Below the pieces are notes generated by a model. The model worked only from the letters and a program-made list of their open reading frames with translations. It did no database searches and was not told the origin of the DNA. Below, in pieces: positions 7,292 through 34,652 of a stretch of DNA of 64,000 nucleotides; position 1 is the first letter of the stretch, and every line of letters starts with the position of its first letter. The translations under genes were made by a program, and so were the position numbers. The stretch covers positions 1-64,000 of the forward strand of contig NZ_NOXU01000031.1 of NCBI RefSeq assembly GCF_002251795.1, given 5' to 3'. The DNA is from Niveispirillum lacus. Its GTDB lineage: Bacteria; Pseudomonadota; Alphaproteobacteria; Azospirillales; Azospirillaceae.

Positions 7292-7798
7292 TTGCATCTT
7301 TCCGTGATCGCCGCCGTCGCCCGTAACGGGGTCATCGGCCATGAAGGCCGCATGCCCTGGAAGCTGCCCAATGATCTGCGCTTTTTCAAGCAGGTGACCA
7401 TGGGCAAGCCCATGATCATGGGCCGCAAGACCTGGGAAAGCTTCGGGTCCAAGCCCTTGCCCGGCCGCCCGCATATCGTGGTCACCGGCAACCGCGCGTT
7501 CCAGGCTGAAGGCGCCATTATTGTCCATGACCTGGAAAGCGCCATTGAAACCGGCAGACGTCTGGCCGAAGAGGCGGGTGGTGATGAGGTGATGGTCATT
7601 GGTGGGGCGCAGATCTATGCCGCCGCCTTGCCTCTGGCCACCCGCGTGTTCCTGACGGAGATCGCGGCCAGCCCGGTGGGCGACACCCATTTCCCGGACT
7701 TCGACCGCACCGCCTTCCTGGGCGAGGAACTGGGTATGCAGATGGCCAAGGGGCCGGACAGCCCGGCCTTCCGCGTCATGCTGTTCCACCGGCGGTAA
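7292..7798 (+). CDS. folA: Dihydrofolate reductase
   Basis: The 168-residue enzyme reduces dihydrofolate to tetrahydrofolate with NADPH. Motifs are IAAVARNGVIG, GRMPWKLPNDLRFFK, GRKTWES and the NADPH-binding GGAQIYAAAL. The start is inferred to be TTG at 7292: it gives the family-typical N-terminus, and GGAG lies 8 nt upstream. The in-frame ORF runs further upstream, but into the antisense of thyA. The next gene starts 4 bp after the stop, so the two are probably cotranscribed. Confidence 0.93.
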   Translation: MHLSVIAAVARNGVIGHEGRMPWKLPNDLRFFKQVTMGKPMIMGRKTWESFGSKPLPGRPHIVVTGNRAFQAEGAIIVHDLESAIETGRRLAEEAGGDEVMVIGGAQIYAAALPLATRVFLTEIAASPVGDTHFPDFDRTAFLGEELGMQMAKGPDSPAFRVMLFHRR

Positions 7799-10412: not shown

Positions 10413-11780
10413 ATGTCCGGCGCACCCGCCATCCTGTCCATGATCGGCAATACCCCGATCGTCCGTGTCAGCCGTTTCGATACCGGCCCGTGCGAGCTGT
10501 ATCTGAAGCTGGAAAACCAGAATCCCGGCGGGTCCATCAAGGACCGTATCGCCCTGAAAATGATCGAAGCGGCCGAAGCCGAAGGCAAGCTGGCCCCCGG
10601 CGGTACGGTGATTGAGGCAACAGCCGGCAATACCGGCCTGGGGCTGGCGCTGGTCTGTGCCGCCAAGGGCTATCGCCTGATCCTGGTCATCCCCGACAAG
10701 ATGGCCACCGAAAAGATCAATAATCTGCGCGCCCTGGGCGCCCAGATCCATATCACCCGGTCCGATGTGGGCAAGGGGCACCCTGCCTATTACCAGGATA
10801 TTGCCGAGCGCCTGTCCCAGGAAATCCCTGGCAGTTTCTATGTGAACCAGTTCGCCAATCCCGCCAATCCGCGCGCGCATGAGGAATGGACGGGTCCGGA
10901 AATGCTGCGCCAGATGGATGGCGATCTTGATGCGGTGGTCGCCGGCATCGGGTCGGGCGGCACCTTCACCGGTCTGGGTGCCTTCTTCGCCAAGGCCAGC
11001 CCCAAGACGGCCATGGTCATCGCCGATCCGGTCGGGTCCATCATCGCCGATCTGGTCAACAAGGGCACGCATGACGAACCCGGTTCCTGGGTCGTTGAAG
11101 GCGTGGGCGAAGATTTTGTGCCCCCCATCTGTGATCTGGCCTACGCCAAAGCCGCCTATTATGTCAGCGATACAGAAAGCCTGAACGCCGCGCGCGACCT
11201 GCTGCGGCTTGAGGGTATCCTGGCTGGTTCCTCATCAGGCACCCTGTTCGCAGCGGCGCTGAAATATTGCCGGGCCCAGACCACGAAAAAGAAGGTCCTC
11301 ACCTTCGTCTGCGACACGGGCAACAAGTACCTGTCGAAGATGTTCAATGATGCCTGGATGGAAGACCACGGCTTCACCCCGCGCGAACGGCACAATGACC
11401 TGCGCGACCTGATGACCCGTCGTTTCGACAAGGGGCAGGTGGTCACCGTGGGCCCGGAGGATACGCTGCTGACCGCCTATAAGCGCATGCGCATCTCCGA
11501 CGTGTCACAGTTGCCGGTGATGGAAGGCGAGCGGGTGATCGGCATCCTGGACGAAAGCGACCTGCTGCTGCATGTCGAAAAGGACCCGGCCCGGTTCCGC
11601 GACAAGGTCTATACCGCCATGGTCAACCGGCTGGAGACCCTGCCCGTGACGGCGACGATGGCTGATCTGCGGGCCTTGTTCAACCGCAACATGGTGGCCA
11701 TCATCATGGATGGCGGCACGTTCCTGGGCCTGCTGACCCGCACCGACGTGCTGAACCATCTGCGTCGGCAACTGGGGTGA
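10413..11780 (+). CDS. Cystathionine beta-synthase with C-terminal CBS pair
   Basis: This 455-residue PLP enzyme has the catalytic lysine motif GGSIKDRIAL near residue 43 and the phosphate-binding GNTGLG and GSGGT(F) loops. Two CBS domains from about residue 335 include MRISDVSQLPVME and FLGLLTRTDVLNHL, and may bind adenosyl ligands. It condenses serine and homocysteine to cystathionine, the first step of reverse transsulfuration. ATG 10413 follows AGGGGGG, while the in-frame TTG at 10395 lacks a site. The partner gamma-lyase type enzyme is at 53.9 kb. Confidence 0.9.
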   Translation: MSGAPAILSMIGNTPIVRVSRFDTGPCELYLKLENQNPGGSIKDRIALKMIEAAEAEGKLAPGGTVIEATAGNTGLGLALVCAAKGYRLILVIPDKMATEKINNLRALGAQIHITRSDVGKGHPAYYQDIAERLSQEIPGSFYVNQFANPANPRAHEEWTGPEMLRQMDGDLDAVVAGIGSGGTFTGLGAFFAKASPKTAMVIADPVGSIIADLVNKGTHDEPGSWVVEGVGEDFVPPICDLAYAKAAYYVSDTESLNAARDLLRLEGILAGSSSGTLFAAALKYCRAQTTKKKVLTFVCDTGNKYLSKMFNDAWMEDHGFTPRERHNDLRDLMTRRFDKGQVVTVGPEDTLLTAYKRMRISDVSQLPVMEGERVIGILDESDLLLHVEKDPARFRDKVYTAMVNRLETLPVTATMADLRALFNRNMVAIIMDGGTFLGLLTRTDVLNHLRRQLG

Positions 11781-11931: not shown

Positions 11932-13659
11932 ATGACCCGCCCGCGTTCGCTTGCCCTGTGGCTTTGCCTTGCTACCGCGCTGTGCGCGATACCGGCCATG
12001 GGGGCCTGGGCGCAGAAGGAAAGTGCCACGGTGACGGCGCTGCCCATGGGCAAGGCCATGGTGTCATCGGCAGACCCGCGTGCCACCGATGCGGGGCGAG
12101 AGATTCTGCGTCAGGGCGGATCGGCGGCCGATGCTGCGGCGGCCCTGATGCTGGCCCTGACGGTGGTGGAGCCTGAATCATCCGGCATCGGCGGTGGCGG
12201 CTTCATGCTGTACCACCCGGCAGGGTCCAAGGACACGTTCAGCTATGATGGGCGCGAGGAAGCGCCATCGGCGGCCAAGCCAGACCGGTTCATGCAGAAC
12301 GGCCAGGAAATGGATTACGAGCTGGCACGGGCGGGCGGCCTGTCCGTCGGGGTGCCGGGTAACATCCGGCTGATCGAACTGGCCCATGCCCGCCACGGCA
12401 AGCTGCCCTGGAAGGCGCTGTTCCAGCCGGCCATCAAACTGGCACGCGACGGTTTTGTTGTGACCCCGCGCATGGTGAAGATGCTGGAGGAGCAGAAGCC
12501 GCTGCTGTCTGCTTCCAAAGAGGCGCAGGAGATTTACTACCAAGCTGACGGCACGCCCAAGCCGGCCGGATCGGTCATCAAGAATCCAAAGCTGGCTGAG
12601 CTTCTGACCCTGGTGGCAGAAAAAGGGGCCGATGCGTTCTACACCGGACCGGCAGCGGAGCGGCTGCGTGCGGCAGTGGGCAATGCGCCGCGCAACCCCA
12701 GCATCATCACCGCGCAGGATATGGCGGATTACCGCGCTGTGCCGCGCCCGCCCGTCTGCGGCACCTACCGCGTCTATACTGTCTGTGGCATGGGGCCGCC
12801 CTCGTCCGGCGGGATTGCCGTGTTGACCATCCTGAAACAAATGGAGGGGTTCGACATTCCGGCCTTGGGGCCGAACAGCCTGGAGGCATGGCACATCATT
12901 GGCGAATCGATGCGGCTGGCTTATGCCGACCGGGCGAAATGGTTGGGTGATCCTGACCATGTGAAGGTGCCGGTCGAGGGGCTGACCGACCCCGCCTATA
13001 TCAAGGAACGGGCCCGGCTGATCGACCCGACAAAGGCCATGCCAACCGCGCCTGCAGGTCATCCCAAGGATGCGCCGCGCGTGTCGGACATTGCTGACAA
13101 TGAAGTGGCTGGCACCACCCATTTCTCTGTCGCCGATGAATGGGGCAATGTCGCTGCCATGACCTCCACCATCGAGGATATCTATGGCTCGGGTATCCTT
13201 GTCGACGGCTATGTGCTGAATAACGAGCTGACGGATTTCAACTTTATCCCCGACGTGGACGGTGTTCCCACCGCCAACCGTGTGGAACCCGGCAAACGTC
13301 CCCGCAGTTCCATGTCGCCCACCATCGTCTATGACCAGAATGGTCAGGCGGTGCTGGCCATCGGGGCGGCGGGTGGCCCGACCATCATCGCGCAGGTGGC
13401 CAAGGCCATCATCGGGGTCCTGGATTGGAAACTGGATGTGCAATCCGCCCTGGCCCTGCCCACCTTCATGGGCAGTGGCAATGAAATCCGTATCGAGGCG
13501 GGCACGCATGTGGGGGCCATGGCCGACAAGCTGCGCGCCATGGGGCACACTGTCACGGTCGATGATTTCGGCGGCAAGCTGAACGGGATCGATAAGATGA
13601 CGGGCCAGTGGCGCGGCGGCGCCGACCCGCGCTCTAACGGGACGGCCGGCGCACCATAA
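11932..13659 (+). CDS. ggt: Gamma-glutamyltransferase precursor
   Basis: This 575-residue periplasmic enzyme has a signal peptide (residues 1 to about 28, ending AMGAWAQ). It cleaves gamma-glutamyl bonds of glutathione and transfers the glutamyl group. The autocatalytic processing site is GTTHFSVAD; the first Thr of the TTH (about residue 395) becomes the N-terminal nucleophile of the small subunit. The substrate motif GKRPRSSMSPTIV is also present, as is GGGGF in the large subunit. An antisense ORF of similar length is a shadow. It lies downstream of cystathionine beta-synthase but across a hairpin, so it is probably a separate transcript in a shared sulfur theme. Confidence 0.95.
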   Translation: MTRPRSLALWLCLATALCAIPAMGAWAQKESATVTALPMGKAMVSSADPRATDAGREILRQGGSAADAAAALMLALTVVEPESSGIGGGGFMLYHPAGSKDTFSYDGREEAPSAAKPDRFMQNGQEMDYELARAGGLSVGVPGNIRLIELAHARHGKLPWKALFQPAIKLARDGFVVTPRMVKMLEEQKPLLSASKEAQEIYYQADGTPKPAGSVIKNPKLAELLTLVAEKGADAFYTGPAAERLRAAVGNAPRNPSIITAQDMADYRAVPRPPVCGTYRVYTVCGMGPPSSGGIAVLTILKQMEGFDIPALGPNSLEAWHIIGESMRLAYADRAKWLGDPDHVKVPVEGLTDPAYIKERARLIDPTKAMPTAPAGHPKDAPRVSDIADNEVAGTTHFSVADEWGNVAAMTSTIEDIYGSGILVDGYVLNNELTDFNFIPDVDGVPTANRVEPGKRPRSSMSPTIVYDQNGQAVLAIGAAGGPTIIAQVAKAIIGVLDWKLDVQSALALPTFMGSGNEIRIEAGTHVGAMADKLRAMGHTVTVDDFGGKLNGIDKMTGQWRGGADPRSNGTAGAP

Positions 13660-13737
13660 TGGCGGCGGGCGCACCCACCGCGCCAACAGGGGACGAGGTG
13701 CATTCCCCCGGTAACGGGCGGCACCCCAACATCCCCC

Positions 13738-13766
13738 TTTAAACCCGCGATCCAATCGCCTATATC
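13738..13766 (+). promoter_or_regulatory. Probable ssrA promoter
   Basis: TTTAAA (13738-13743) and TATATC (13761-13766) are separated by 17 bp. They place a start at about 13772, at the base of the GTCGGG-TTCG-CCCGAC hairpin that begins the tmRNA acceptor piece. Confidence 0.5.
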
Positions 13767-13771
13767 AAGCC

Positions 13772-14098
13772 TGTCGGGTTCGCCCGACTATGGGGATAAA
13801 CGCGGTGTGGAATAGACGTTGCGGACCCGGGGGCGGTACCCGGCGCCTCCACCATTCACTCCCGGCCGGATGGCCAGGGGTTCATGGGGGCGAAACAGGA
13901 TCGACGCGCGTAATAAAGGCATAGTCTTCCCTCGGCATGATACCGCCGTTATCGGGTCAAACCTCATAGATGCCAACGATAACTCGGCGTCTGACCTTCG
14001 CATGGCTGCCTGATTCCCCCTAAAGGGCGTTAGTCAGTTTGCTTAAGTCGCAGCCCGGGGGGAGCTGGGCAACAGAATCCCCCCACCTTGTTTTTGTT
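13772..14098 (+). ncRNA. ssrA: tmRNA, circularly permuted two-piece form
   Basis: The acceptor piece comes first. It opens with a hairpin at 13773-13788, has a T-arm (CCGGG/CCCGG stem around 13828-13842), and ends with CGCCTCC-ACCA at 13844-13854. A short intervening segment follows. The coding piece then starts with GGGGGCG at 13886-13892, which pairs with CGCCTCC to form a 7-bp acceptor stem with a G-U at the third pair, the alanine identity element. The tag ORF starts at the resume codon GCC 13972 and encodes ANDNSASDLRMAA, with TGA at 14011-14013. A GGGGGG/CCCCCC hairpin (14057-14084) and T-rich tail end the gene. The order, acceptor before coding, is the alphaproteobacterial arrangement needing processing into two RNAs. 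End points are approximate. Confidence 0.93.
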
Positions 14099-14101
14099 CC
14101 C

Positions 14102-14560
14102 TCAGGCGCCGGGCGCCGCCTCCGGCGGCTTGGCTTACGCGACCATGGGGTCGCGGGCGCTCAACGCGCCAGCCAAGCTGCGCTTGGCATCATGTTTTCC
14201 GTCAGGCGCCGGGCGCCGCCTCCGGCGGCTTGGCTCACGCGACCATGGGGTCGCGGGCTCTCAACGCGCCAGCCAAGCTGCGCTTGGCATCATGTTTTCC
14301 GTCAGGCGCCGGGCGCCGCCTCCGGCGGCTTGGCTTACGCGACCATGGGGTCGCGGGCGCTCAACGCGCCAGCCAAGCTGCGCTTGGCATCATGTTTTCC
14401 GTCAGGCGCCGGGCGCCGCCTCCGGCGGCTTGGCTCACGCGACCATGGGGTCGCGGGCTCTCAACGCGCCAGCCAAGCTGCGCTTGGCATCATGTTTTCC
14501 GTCAGGCGCCGGGCGCCGCCTCCGGCGGCTTGGCTTACGCGACCATGGGGTCGCGGGCGC
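14102..14560 (+). repeat. 100-bp tandem repeat array, ABABA
   Basis: There are four full units and one 59-bp partial unit with a period of exactly 100 bp, beginning TCAGGCGCCGGGCGCC at 14102, 14202, 14302, 14402 and 14502. Units 1, 3 and 5 (A) differ from 2 and 4 (B) at two fixed bases only (T/C in GGCTTACG and G/T in GCGGGCGC). The array is thus an amplified 200-bp dimer. Each unit holds several dyads: GCGACC-atgg-GGTCGC, GCCAAGC-tgc-GCTTGGC and a GGCGCC pair. The period is not a multiple of three, so the overlapping ORFs here are artefacts. Nothing coding is supported between ssrA and sspB; 14561-14698 shows no further feature. Confidence 0.95.
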
Positions 14561-14698
14561 CGTTAAACCCGCATGGCCGCGTGCGGGAACCCAGACATTT
14601 GCGCCCGACGCTTGATTATCCGTCCGTAATAGGCTTGTCTGAGCCCCATGGGGGACGGATGGGTCCGTCGCGTTCGATGCCAGGGGTTTACCGTACCG

Positions 14699-15196
14699 AT
14701 GTCCGAGGAAATGCTCCGCTATGACCGCATGGTCGAAGCCGCCAAGCGCGGCGTCGTCAGACAGGCCCTGCGAGAGGTTTTGAGTCGGGGCGGTCAGCTA
14801 CCCGGCGAACATCATTTCTACATCACCTTCCGCACCGACGCGGAAGGCGTGGATATCCCCGATTATCTCCGCGCCAAGTACCCGACGGAGATGACCATCG
14901 TTTTGCAGTACCAGTTTTACGATCTGACGGTGGAGAACGATAAGTTCGCCGTTACCCTGTCCTTTGGTGGGGTGCTGCGGCGGCTGGTCATTCCCTTCAT
15001 TCACATCATCACCTTCGCAGACCCATCGGTGAATTTTGTCCTCCAGTTCCAGCCCGATGACATGCCGGAGATGCTGGTGGAGGAGGACGAGATGGAAGAA
15101 GCGGGGGCGACGCCGGACGTGGCCGCCGTTCCAGCCGATGATCAGCCCAAGCCCTCCGGCACCGTGGTGGCCCTGGACGCCTTCCGCAAGAAGTAG
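14699..15196 (+). CDS. sspB: ClpXP adaptor SspB, alpha type
   Basis: This is a 165-residue stringent-starvation-B family adaptor. Its core (HHFYITFRTDAEGVDIPDYL, EMTIVLQYQFYDLTV, FGGVLRRLVIPFIHIITFAD) forms the ssrA-tag-binding domain. An acidic, Ala/Pro-rich linker of about 45 residues follows, then a short basic tail (VVALDAFRKK) that in this family docks on ClpX. It delivers ssrA-tagged polypeptides to ClpXP. It lies 0.6 kb downstream of ssrA, the source of its substrate tag. The ATG at 14699 fits family length, although its upstream site (GGGG) is distant. Confidence 0.92.
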   Translation: MSEEMLRYDRMVEAAKRGVVRQALREVLSRGGQLPGEHHFYITFRTDAEGVDIPDYLRAKYPTEMTIVLQYQFYDLTVENDKFAVTLSFGGVLRRLVIPFIHIITFADPSVNFVLQFQPDDMPEMLVEEDEMEEAGATPDVAAVPADDQPKPSGTVVALDAFRKK

Positions 15197-15362
15197 GGGC
15201 TGCCAAAACGCGGTTGCCAAAGCGGGTAGATGGCACCATCCGGCATCGACCAGATGGCCGTGATTGCTTTCCGCACGATCGTACGCTTTTCGCCTTGACG
15301 GCGGCGGCGGCTTCGGGCGTCCTGTGCCCCAACCATAATCCAGGTGAGGGGAGAACCCGAAA

Positions 15363-16109
15363 ATGACCGATCATGTGCTGGTGAATGACGCTGACGGCGT
15401 CCGCACGATTACGCTGAACCGTGCTGATAAACGCAACGCTCTGACGGCCGCCATGTATGCCGCCATGGCCAATGCCCTGACCAGCGCGCCGGAGGCCGGT
15501 ATCCGTGCGATTTTGTTCACCGGGGCCGGCGGGTTCTTCACGGGCGGCAATGATATTGGCGATTTCCTGGCCAACCCGCCGGCCAATGATGATGCACCGG
15601 TGTTCCAGTTCCTCTATGCCATCGCCACCACCCCGTTGCCTGTTGTGGCCGCCGTTGAAGGCATGGCCGTGGGCGTGGGGACAACGATGCTGCTGCATTG
15701 TGATCTGGTCTATGCGGCGCCGGATGCCCGCCTGCATGTCCCGTTTGTCGATCTGGGACTGGTGCCGGAAGCCGCCAGTTCCATCTTGATGCCCCGCACC
15801 ATGGGCCATGCACAGGCGGCCCGCATGCTGATGCTGGGTGAGCCGCTGGGGGCGGAGGAAGCACTGGCCACGGGCATCCTGTCGGGTCTCGTTCCGGCAG
15901 CCGAACTGGCGCAGGTGGCTTTGGCCAAGGCTAAGGCCCTGGCCGCCAAACCGGTGGAAGCCATGCGCCACACCAAGGCTCTCATGCGGCCCCAACAGGC
16001 GGAAGTGCTGGCCACGATGAAGAAGGAAGGTCAGATTTTCGGCGCCTGCCTGCGTTCACCGGAAGCCAAGGCAGCGTTCCAGGCCTTTATGATGAAGGGC
16101 AAGAAGTAA
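15363..16109 (+). CDS. Enoyl-CoA hydratase/isomerase family protein
   Basis: The 248-residue crotonase-fold protein has the oxyanion-hole segment TGAGGFFTGGNDIGDFL and VEGMAVGVGTTMLLHCD. In GLVPEAASSILMPR the retained Glu corresponds to one catalytic glutamate of enoyl-CoA hydratases/isomerases. A clear GAGGGGAGAA site precedes ATG 15363. It could hydrate or isomerise an unsaturated acyl-CoA; the substrate is not determinable. Confidence 0.85.
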   Translation: MTDHVLVNDADGVRTITLNRADKRNALTAAMYAAMANALTSAPEAGIRAILFTGAGGFFTGGNDIGDFLANPPANDDAPVFQFLYAIATTPLPVVAAVEGMAVGVGTTMLLHCDLVYAAPDARLHVPFVDLGLVPEAASSILMPRTMGHAQAARMLMLGEPLGAEEALATGILSGLVPAAELAQVALAKAKALAAKPVEAMRHTKALMRPQQAEVLATMKKEGQIFGACLRSPEAKAAFQAFMMKGKK

Positions 16110-32135: not shown

Positions 32136-34652
32136 ATGGAAACCTTGATCAACACGCTTCTGGCGGTTGCCGGCCTGCTGGGGTTGGTCAGCCTGCTGCC
32201 GCCATTGGCCAGGAAGCTGGGCCTGCCCTACACGGTGGTGCTGGCAGCCCTGGGTGTAGGCATCGGTCTGCTGCTGCATCTGGGTGGTGGGGTGGAACGG
32301 GAGGTGACAGGACCGGTCACCGCCTTCATCAACGCCGTCGGCAATGTGGAACTGACATCCGCAGCCTTCCTTTACATCTTCCTGCCGGTGCTGCTGTTTG
32401 AAACGGCGCTGGGTGTGGATGTGCGGCGCATGCTCGACGATCTCGGGCCTATTCTGCTGCTGGCCATTGTGGCTGTCCTGGTCTGCACATTGGTTGCGGG
32501 TTTTGCGATGTGGTGGGTCTGGGGCCTGTGGCATGGCATGCCAACGCAGAAGGCCTTGATCATCTGCCTGCTGCTGGCCAGCATTATTGCCACAACCGAT
32601 CCGGCTGCTGTGGTCAGCATCTTCCGCGACCTGGGCGCGCCGCGTCGGCTGACCATCCTGGTCGAAGGTGAAAGCCTGTTTAATGACGCCGCCGCCATTG
32701 TGCTGTTCACCCTGCTGCTGGGCATCCTGACCAGCGGGGGAGACCCGGACCTGGGGGCGGCAGCCTTTGACTTTGTGTTCAAGTTCATTGGCGGCGTGGC
32801 GGTCGGCTGGCTGCTGGGCTGGTTAACGGCGCTGGTGGTCACGCCCCTGCGTAACCAGACCCTGTCAGAGATTACCCTGACGGTGGCGCTGGCCTACCTG
32901 TCCTTCATCCTGGCCGAACATTACCTGCATGTATCGGGTGTGGTGGCTGTGGTGGTGGCAGGTCTGGTCATGGCCTCGGCAGGGCGAACCCGCATCAGCC
33001 CGGAAAGCTGGTCGGGCCTGGAACAGGTGTGGAGCCAGTTGGGTTTCTGGGCCAATTCCCTGATCTTCCTGTTTGCATCCATGCTGGTGCCGCCCACGCT
33101 GATGGGCGCGAAATGGAGCCATTTTGCCCTGCTGGCGGCGTTGATCCTGGCAGCGTTGGGCGCGCGGGCTGCTGTGATCTTTGGTATCCTGCCCATCCTG
33201 TCCTGGGTTGGTGCGTCCGACCGGATCAGCCATCGCTATCGGATTGTCATGACCTGGGGCGGCCTGCGAGGGGCGGTGTCGCTGGCGCTGGCCCTGGCTG
33301 TGACGGAGCATCAGTCGCTGCCGGACTATATTCAGGAACATGTAGCCGTCGTGGTGACCGGCTTTGTGCTGTTCACCCTGTTTGTGCAGGGGACGACGCT
33401 GCGCCCGCTGATCCGCGTGCTGAAGCTGGACCGGCTGACGCCGGTGGAACAGGCGTTGCGTAATCGGGCCTTGGGCCTGTCACTCTCCAATGTGCGTCGC
33501 GATCTGGAGGATGTGGCCGAACGGTTCGGGCTGGATGCTGCACATGCCATCGACCCACTGATGGAGCGCGGAGCGGAACTGGCGCAGGAACAGTTGGATC
33601 TGGAAAGCCGGTACGGCGCCCTGTCGCTGGATGACCGGGTCTATATCGGCCTGGCCACCCTGGCCCGGTATGAGGAACAGCGTTACCTGGCCTATTTCCG
33701 CGATGGTGTGATCTCCCGCCTGTCGGTGCAAACCCTGGCGGCGGTGGCCGGCCGCCTGCAGGATGCGCTGAAAACCGGCGGGGCGGCGGCCTATACCAAG
33801 GTGGCGGCCAAACAGTTGCGGCCGGGCCGGGCGCTGCGGACCGCCTTGTGGCTGCATCGACGGTATGGTTGGGAACGGCCGGTGTCGGCCCGGCTGGCCG
33901 AACGGTATGCGATGTTGACGGCCCTGCGCTTTTGCCTGCGCGAATTGAACCAGTTCACGGGTGACCGGTTGGCACCGATGCTGGGCAAGCAGGCAGCGGA
34001 AGCCGTCCGAACCCGCCTGACGGCCCGGCTGACGGTGGTGGAAGAGGCCCTGGACAGTATCCGCCTGCAATATCCCGCCTATCTGGATGCGGTGCAGTCC
34101 CAGTACCTGATTCGTGCGGGCCTGCGCATGGAGGAACGGTCAACCCAGTCGCTGTTTGAAGAGGCGCTGATCAGCCGCGAAATCCTGAACGATCTGGAAC
34201 GCGACCTGCGCGAACGCTGGCAGGAGGTGAGTACGCCGCCAAAGCTGGACCTGGGTTTGGCCACGCATGAGTTGATCGGGCGGGTGCCGCTGTTCGCCGG
34301 CCTGACACCGGAGCGGTTGGCACAGATTGAGAGGCTGCTGCGGCCCCGGCTGTATTTTCCGGGTGAGACCATCGTGCGTAAGGGGGAGCGCGGGGATACT
34401 GTCTATTTTATCTCCTCGGGTGCGGTGGCGGTGCATGTGGCCGGGCTGGATGCGCCCATCCGCCTTGGCAGTGGTGATTTTTTCGGGGAGATCGCCCTGG
34501 TTCTGGACCAGCCGCGCAACGCGGATGTGACGGCACTCGCCTATTGCCAGCTTCTGTTGTTGGATAAGCGCGACTTCAACCGTCTGTACAGCGGCGATCC
34601 GGTGCTGAAGGAGCATTTCGACAGCGCCATTCAGAAACGGCTGTCAGCCTGA
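32136..34652 (+). CDS. CPA1 Na+/H+ antiporter with C-terminal cyclic-nucleotide-binding domain
   Basis: The 838-residue protein has about 12 membrane helices in the first 420 residues, with ATTDPAAVVSIFRDLG and the ion-site motif SLFNDAAAIVLF. A helical cytosolic region of about 280 residues follows. A CNB domain at about 715-830 includes IVRKGERGDTVYFISSGAVA and GDFFGEIALVLDQPRNADV. It exchanges protons for Na+/K+ at the inner membrane, probably gated by a cyclic nucleotide. A GTG at 32127 is an alternative start. The architecture resembles NhaP/SOS1-like transporters. Confidence 0.88.
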   Translation: METLINTLLAVAGLLGLVSLLPPLARKLGLPYTVVLAALGVGIGLLLHLGGGVEREVTGPVTAFINAVGNVELTSAAFLYIFLPVLLFETALGVDVRRMLDDLGPILLLAIVAVLVCTLVAGFAMWWVWGLWHGMPTQKALIICLLLASIIATTDPAAVVSIFRDLGAPRRLTILVEGESLFNDAAAIVLFTLLLGILTSGGDPDLGAAAFDFVFKFIGGVAVGWLLGWLTALVVTPLRNQTLSEITLTVALAYLSFILAEHYLHVSGVVAVVVAGLVMASAGRTRISPESWSGLEQVWSQLGFWANSLIFLFASMLVPPTLMGAKWSHFALLAALILAALGARAAVIFGILPILSWVGASDRISHRYRIVMTWGGLRGAVSLALALAVTEHQSLPDYIQEHVAVVVTGFVLFTLFVQGTTLRPLIRVLKLDRLTPVEQALRNRALGLSLSNVRRDLEDVAERFGLDAAHAIDPLMERGAELAQEQLDLESRYGALSLDDRVYIGLATLARYEEQRYLAYFRDGVISRLSVQTLAAVAGRLQDALKTGGAAAYTKVAAKQLRPGRALRTALWLHRRYGWERPVSARLAERYAMLTALRFCLRELNQFTGDRLAPMLGKQAAEAVRTRLTARLTVVEEALDSIRLQYPAYLDAVQSQYLIRAGLRMEERSTQSLFEEALISREILNDLERDLRERWQEVSTPPKLDLGLATHELIGRVPLFAGLTPERLAQIERLLRPRLYFPGETIVRKGERGDTVYFISSGAVAVHVAGLDAPIRLGSGDFFGEIALVLDQPRNADVTALAYCQLLLLDKRDFNRLYSGDPVLKEHFDSAIQKRLSA

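Follow-up and report, generated by a model that had tools for sequence, protein, structure and literature searches.

A tandem array behind ssrA in Niveispirillum lacus and its probable origin from a dispersed family of MITE-like, multi-hairpin elements

The ssrA–sspB locus and its repeat array

The window (the whole stretch of 64,000 nucleotides analyzed here, from Niveispirillum lacus) contains a permuted tmRNA gene, ssrA, followed by a tandem array of 100-bp units and by an open reading frame that we take to be sspB, the gene for a ClpXP adaptor. The features of the locus, with hairpins named as in the next section, are the following:

13734–14087, plus strand: ssrA, a permuted alphaproteobacterial tmRNA with the tag ANDNSASDLRMAA (Rfam RF01849, 248.5 bits; ARAGORN)
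14057–14096, plus strand: G/C-rich hairpin at the end of ssrA, then TTGTTTTTG, a possible ssrA terminator judged from the sequence
14097–14560: tandem array with a period of 100, 4.6 copies, 97 per cent matches and no indels (Tandem Repeats Finder, single array)
14101–14200, plus strand: repeat unit 1, type A, with C at position 1 (family core match on the minus strand at 14097–14174, 88.8 bits)
14172–14198, plus strand: hairpin H0 of unit 1, then ATCATGTTTT, terminator-like (copies at 14272, 14372 and 14472)
14201–14300, plus strand: repeat unit 2, type B (family core match, 82.9 bits)
14301–14400, plus strand: repeat unit 3, type A (family core match, 84.9 bits)
14401–14500, plus strand: repeat unit 4, type B (family core match, 82.9 bits)
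14501–14560, plus strand: repeat unit 5, type A, which stops inside hairpin H1 at unit position 60 (core, 72.6 bits)
14611–14640, plus strand: conserved, promoter-like block upstream of sspB, CTTGATT...TAATAGGCTTGTCT (alignment of 11 rows from 9 distinct genomes)
14699–15196, plus strand: sspB (ORF; homologs in 9 of the 11 genomes of the genus, its own included)

Tandem Repeats Finder and a comparison of the units confirm that the array is real and has the order ABABA, as originally predicted, at coordinates that had been given correctly to within a few bases, and the Rfam match to RF01849 at 13734–14087 supports its position directly behind the tmRNA. Two fixed bases had been said to alternate between units, and they do: type B units differ from type A in having C instead of T at position 36 and T instead of G at position 59, and units 2 and 4 are identical. 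A further difference, at unit position 1 (C in unit 1, G in the later units), had been overlooked. All units run head-to-tail, with the family core on the minus strand in five of five. Amplification of a 200-bp dimer, low divergence among the units and the presence of several hairpins in each are likewise borne out. In the folding analysis, which covered units 1 and 2, the fold of unit 1 beats dinucleotide shuffles on both strands (plus strand, z = −3.8; minus strand, z = −2.6), and the plus-strand fold of unit 2 has a z of −2.4 against such shuffles. The unit had not been recognized as a known REP/BIME family, in agreement with an Rfam scan of positions 13000–15500 (E-value up to 1), in which nothing beyond two tmRNA families matched. 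Chance cannot account for an exact repeat as large as this array.

Two other readings of the repeat were set aside. The array is open in three forward frames, with ORFs of 164–175 aa that we take to be mechanical readings of a G/C-rich repeat. The complementarity of the unit to the T arm of the tmRNA (86 per cent over 22 bases) is at chance level, similar matches being present elsewhere in the window.

The hairpin at the end of ssrA forms in the predicted fold of positions 14045–14110, a fold no better than those of shuffled sequences (z = 0.12), and it is absent from the list returned by a terminator scan with a loop limit of 8. Within the array the scan returned four hairpins, compared to a shuffle mean of 1.1, and the four are copies of one sequence; the H0 hairpin of unit 1 has a predicted energy of −11.3 kcal/mol (z = −0.99).

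From the end of the array to the start of sspB at 14699 there are 138 bp, within which, downstream of the array, lies the conserved block. The block is kept both with and without an adjoining ssrA (the G001 row of the alignment is clipped at its left edge), no match to the sigma-70 consensus was found in its region, and we regard it as putatively promoter-like. ARAGORN places a tmRNA upstream of sspB in 13 of 20 chosen loci from other alphaproteobacteria, within approximately 560 bases in 10. Elsewhere in the window, at 34430–34522, the same program reports a tRNA-Pro(TGG) of 93 bases, which is unusually long for that tRNA.

Anatomy and dispersal of the element family

Read on the minus strand, the element consists of hairpins H0, H1 and H2, the linker TAAGCCAAG, hairpin H3 and the conserved tail GCCCGGCGCCTGAGGGAA, to which full-length copies add a hairpin H4; its outer ends are TACCAATC and GATTGGTA. 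The core comprises three hairpins over approximately 78 bp, and the whole element measures about 100–160 bp, with three to five stems. The sequence of H0 varies from copy to copy. H1 reads GGCCGGCGACCGCCGGCC or, as in the window units, TGGCGCGTTGAGCGCC, and in those units H2 and H3 read CGCGACCCCATGGTCGCG and CCGCCGGAGGCGG, respectively.

A search of the N. lacus genome (G000) with one unit gave ten further matches at nine loci (E-value below 0.01). The 200-bp dimer has matches in 23 of 59 genomes, N. lacus included, 22 of them within the family Azospirillaceae and one outside it (G035, one of 24 genomes of other families). A covariance model and alignment built from 22 element copies gave 50 matches in G000 at E-values up to 1, and 42 at E-values of at most 0.01, of which 5 lie in the array and 37 outside. 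All 11 genomes of the genus contain model matches, and counts in the other ten run from 14 to 150 or more per genome (80–150 candidates were scored per genome, which makes the high counts lower bounds). At E-values of at most 1e−4, 38 of 59 Azospirillaceae genomes have matches when the genus of the window is included and 27 of 48 when it is left out, and model matches span 9 of the 13 sampled genera of the family. The element is also present in two Niveispirillum plasmid records, lying between two annotated genes in the smaller one. No element match was found in a phage collection at E-values of at most 1e−5, nor any match in viral contigs to one exact 26-base core pattern. On contig G035:C71 (L050) there are model matches at 61 and 30 bits, given which the element family may extend beyond Azospirillaceae.

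Pairing in the element is kept while stems change. In a MAFFT alignment of 22 copies, 91.1 per cent of cells are paired, with 53 both-side changes compared to 11.9 in shuffles, under a structure that was written from the same 22 sequences. H1 is paired in only 82.6 per cent in this alignment, its two forms being out of register there, and RNAalifold predicts H2 and H3 from the 22 copies and leaves H1 unpaired. A model-fitted alignment of 94 distinct copies, which leans toward the structure, is 98.2 per cent paired, with 345 both-side changes compared to 93.7 in shuffles, and slid versions of the structure are paired at 56 per cent or less. The number of pairs with both-side changes in this alignment, 15, is barely above the 12.9 of shuffles and is reached by 23 of 500 of them. 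Beyond the core, 52 of 83 distinct copies have a strong inverted repeat in the 60 bases before it, compared to 19 of 600 random 60-mers; of the 57 better-scoring copies, 41 have such a repeat ahead of the core, 28 have one behind it and 21 have both, compared to 20 of 600 random 60-mers, which were drawn without matching for position outside genes.

Individual copies illustrate these changes. Between the orthologous copies of G007 and G003 by a cysteine-synthase-like gene (named by eye), three pairs of H0 have changed with compensation, and in the G000 copy beside this gene the pairing of H0 is lost. In the G002 array at L211:10759–11298, units 3 and 4 are identical at 102 of 108 positions, and H2 holds each of the six differences, with pairing kept; the changes between these neighbors look like the exchange of a hairpin cassette. 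It is possible, though less likely than not, that the family keeps its ends, linker and pairing but not its stem sequences because entire hairpins are rewritten or swapped as cassettes, with the two arms changing together, by template switching or gene conversion from one copy to another.

At 59 of 67 element loci, the 3' end of at least one neighboring gene faces the element, and 8 of the 67 lie between divergent genes. Stop codons that face the element lie at a median distance of 17 bases from its tail side (38 loci) and of 40.5 bases from its H0 side (32 loci). These placements come from our own simple gene finder with elements masked; without masking, 10 of 83 elements fall inside predicted ORFs. 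The preference for nondivergent gaps is not significant (8 of 67 loci versus 5 of 20 window gaps between divergent genes; Fisher's test, P-value = 0.17), and the loci are not independent, some being one orthologous site sampled in several genomes and a few coming from outside the genus. Elements occur in both orientations.

Several relatives have arrays of their own. G002 has arrays of 4.2, 2.3 and 5.3 copies (L211, G002:C20:11500–24000, at 616–1118, 7543–7796 and 10759–11336), and others contain 3.2 copies in G007, 1.9 in G010 and 3.2 in G008. Amplification is therefore not peculiar to ssrA. The L211 arrays sit among portal, tail-fiber and tail-terminator genes, in a prophage-like region.

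The copy number of the N. lacus array rests on one draft assembly of 31 contigs, and within the array exact repeats of 250 bases are present (those of 260 bases are absent). Conceivably, the true number is one or two units, which the assembler expanded or mis-joined. Some contigs of relatives do end in or beside elements (G007:C37 starts in one, and G007:C227 and G002:C25 end 16 and 127 bases after one, respectively), and draft assemblies of these genomes may be interrupted or distorted by such elements. However, alternation at two positions, together with a last unit that breaks off early, implies that there is more than one, and family arrays are found in other assemblies too, most of them also drafts. 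We consider an assembly artifact unlikely.

The ssrA–sspB site in relatives

An sspB locus was obtained from 9 of the 11 genomes of the genus, G003 and G005 yielding none. The gap between ssrA and sspB holds one degenerate element copy in G006 (44 bits) and, in G010, an element remnant seen by eye, at which the covariance model gave no match. No element was found in the corresponding gaps of G001, G004 and G008, and in G002, G007 and G009 a search of 1.5 kb upstream of sspB detected no tmRNA. Among the genomes sampled, an array at this site is present only in the window's species, none of the five relatives with ssrA adjoining sspB having one. Because two relatives hold a worn copy or a remnant and three hold none, an old, tail-truncated insertion has probably been multiplied here: a single old insertion behind ssrA would be common to the near relatives, and of the species sampled only that of the window would have multiplied it.

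Two further observations concern these loci. On the other side of ssrA, G006 (N. cyanobacteriorum) has a second, better-kept element copy (L143:2670–2748, 79 bits). In G009/SYP-B3756, apparently one genome represented twice, an Rfam match to the terC RNA lies upstream of sspB (L147:3087–3144 and L061:1867–1924).

The original prediction had proposed a special link of the array to ssrA and sspB. A search of the whole genome and of relatives found the unit at scattered loci and family arrays at other places, which is largely the outcome that had been named as speaking against the prediction. With the unit dispersed and the gaps of relatives without an array, the proposal is not supported, and we rejected it as the main reading. 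In its fullest form, the array would be a regulatory device of serial terminators or mRNA-stability hairpins, in which the number of units sets read-through from ssrA to sspB and couples the tag to its adaptor. The location of the array in an old neighborhood (as the tmRNA upstream of sspB in 13 of 20 alphaproteobacterial loci indicates), the terminator-like hairpin with T residues in four units and the stable folding of unit 1 from either strand would all suit such a device. They are set against five relatives that have ssrA by sspB and hold a worn copy, a remnant or nothing, never an array, three more that gave no tmRNA in the 1.5 kb ahead of sspB, and the occurrence of the same repeats at many unrelated loci. 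In addition, the conserved block separates the array from sspB, and copy-number tuning of sspB is therefore unsupported. We regard a regulatory device as quite unlikely.

Element ends, related families and the origin of the array

Full-length copies in relatives have the terminal inverted repeats TACCAATC...GATTGGTA or close variants. Under a fixed rule, 20 of 156 distinct copies have both hairpinned ends, and 14 of these 20 are flanked by identical TNA triplets (mispairing expectation of 3.95; 0 of 10,000 permutations reach 14). A stricter first rule, which gave three copies and one duplication, was replaced; the three flanking bases figured in neither rule. A second sample was drawn by the right-hand end alone, which occurs at 18, 107 and 71 places in G001, G002 and G009, respectively (0 with a reversed-pattern control). 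In the 28 usable loci out of 30, a crude motif detected the core in 22 and a right-hand TNA is present in 26. TNA-TRCC lies 130–200 bases leftward in 19, and in 17 of these 19 both triplets agree, a sample in which TNA before the left end was required and only the identity of the triplets was tested. The elements are 157–160 bp long in 18 of the 19 and 147 bp in one. The two samples overlap, with at least five insertions in common.

A filled and an empty site could be compared between yebC- and ruvC-like genes (named by eye). In G001, a 157-bp element lies there between TGA triplets. In G002 and G009 the site is empty: aligned by eye, it is gapless with 5 mismatches in 18 bases, minus the element and one TGA. 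G006 and G005 also have no element, G003 and G010 have one core and G000 has two in tandem. This is the one site at which a filled/empty comparison supports the MITE reading; a ybaB-like site (named by eye), where only G006 holds a remnant and the other sequences are unrelated, says little.

By their terminal repeats, target duplication and the one empty site, full-length copies look like MITEs. Mobility would apply to these copies in relatives, the form in the window being an H4-less, tail-truncated one. In the window units the left-hand end is present as the variant TGCCAAGC, next to a TGA, and H4 and the right-hand end are missing, so that the target duplication of this insertion is unreadable. 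These units also carry the second H1 form, and no demonstrated duplication belongs to that form.

Duplication of TNA is typical of the IS1031 group of IS5. In the genus, none of 25 loci with a PF13586 transposase, the one transposase family searched, is flanked by the ends TACCAATC and GATTGGTA, and G000 has no PF13586 match. These 25 loci, lacking matching ends, were rejected as an autonomous insertion sequence partner.

Among known bacterial MITEs, Correia/NEMIS, RUP and ERIC (PMC10969869) are short, noncoding, largely intergenic, hairpin-forming and of high copy number, and have terminal inverted repeats and target duplication, all of which the present family shares. It differs from these three in its several hairpins, variable stems, TNA duplication and ends; no parent insertion sequence was found, and in the genomes searched it occurs mainly in Azospirillaceae. 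CGTC-tagged REPs are mostly alphaproteobacterial palindromes located predominantly downstream of genes, with single stems of 8–9 bp, A-T pairs first, CCA at the end and a tag that may also read TGTC or CCTC; the species listed for them include A. lipoferum, which is presumably an Azospirillum and would then share the family of the window (PMC3733652). Our units likewise have CCTC or CGTC at their tail end, but their stems and tail misfit that text description, the sole basis of the comparison, and identity with CGTC-tagged REPs is only partly excluded. RIME and the A, B and C motifs (PMC2573895) are also alphaproteobacterial intergenic repeats of conserved sequence and secondary structure, a likeness at the level of description.

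That the family consists of REP elements mobilized by a RAYT or another Y1 transposase, the array being a BIME, is highly improbable: its palindromes are abundant, extragenic and close to gene 3' ends, as those of REPs are (PMC2817692, PMC3733652), but the array units run head-to-tail instead of alternating in orientation, full-length copies end in inverted repeats and are flanked by a duplicated 3-bp target, the core has three hairpins and not a single 20–40-bp REP palindrome, the GTAG end is absent by eye from the family alignment, and RAYT mobilization is rejected on a search for Y1_Tnp (PF01797), which had no match in G000 and one marginal match in the 11 genomes of the genus (24.5 bits; cut-off 23), with positive controls matching in 5 of 14, Escherichia coli among them.

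No description of this element family was found in the open-access literature searched, and a term check of PMC12306157 found these genera not named. We rate the array itself as ordinary and the element family as an apparently undescribed member of the MITE kind.

The array is, in all likelihood, a local tandem amplification of one member of this dispersed, MITE-like, multi-hairpin family of Niveispirillum and other Azospirillaceae, and its place beside ssrA is probably incidental. A tail-truncated copy would have settled behind ssrA before these species split and then become a 100-bp tandem duplication. One unit would have gained two changes to give type B, and the AB dimer would have multiplied by slippage or unequal crossing over, a course of events reconstructed solely from the sequence.

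The array can be explained without specific regulation of sspB. Some bacterial MITEs carry terminator-like sequences or alter transcript stability. Given the weak terminator-like hairpin in the four complete units and the strong folding of unit 1 from either strand, the array may plausibly provide a back-up stop or protect the 3' end. It could perhaps, though we would sooner expect otherwise, act as a block of redundant 3' hairpins and terminators that keeps read-through from ssrA out of sspB.

What appeared to be an oddity linked to ssrA is one outcome of an abundant family that, in Niveispirillum and related genera, often lies just behind stop codons. Its many natural copies with differing stems raise the question of what maintains the hairpins, selection acting on RNA or mutation that corrects palindromes, and the family lets one ask which enzyme uses TNA targets here.
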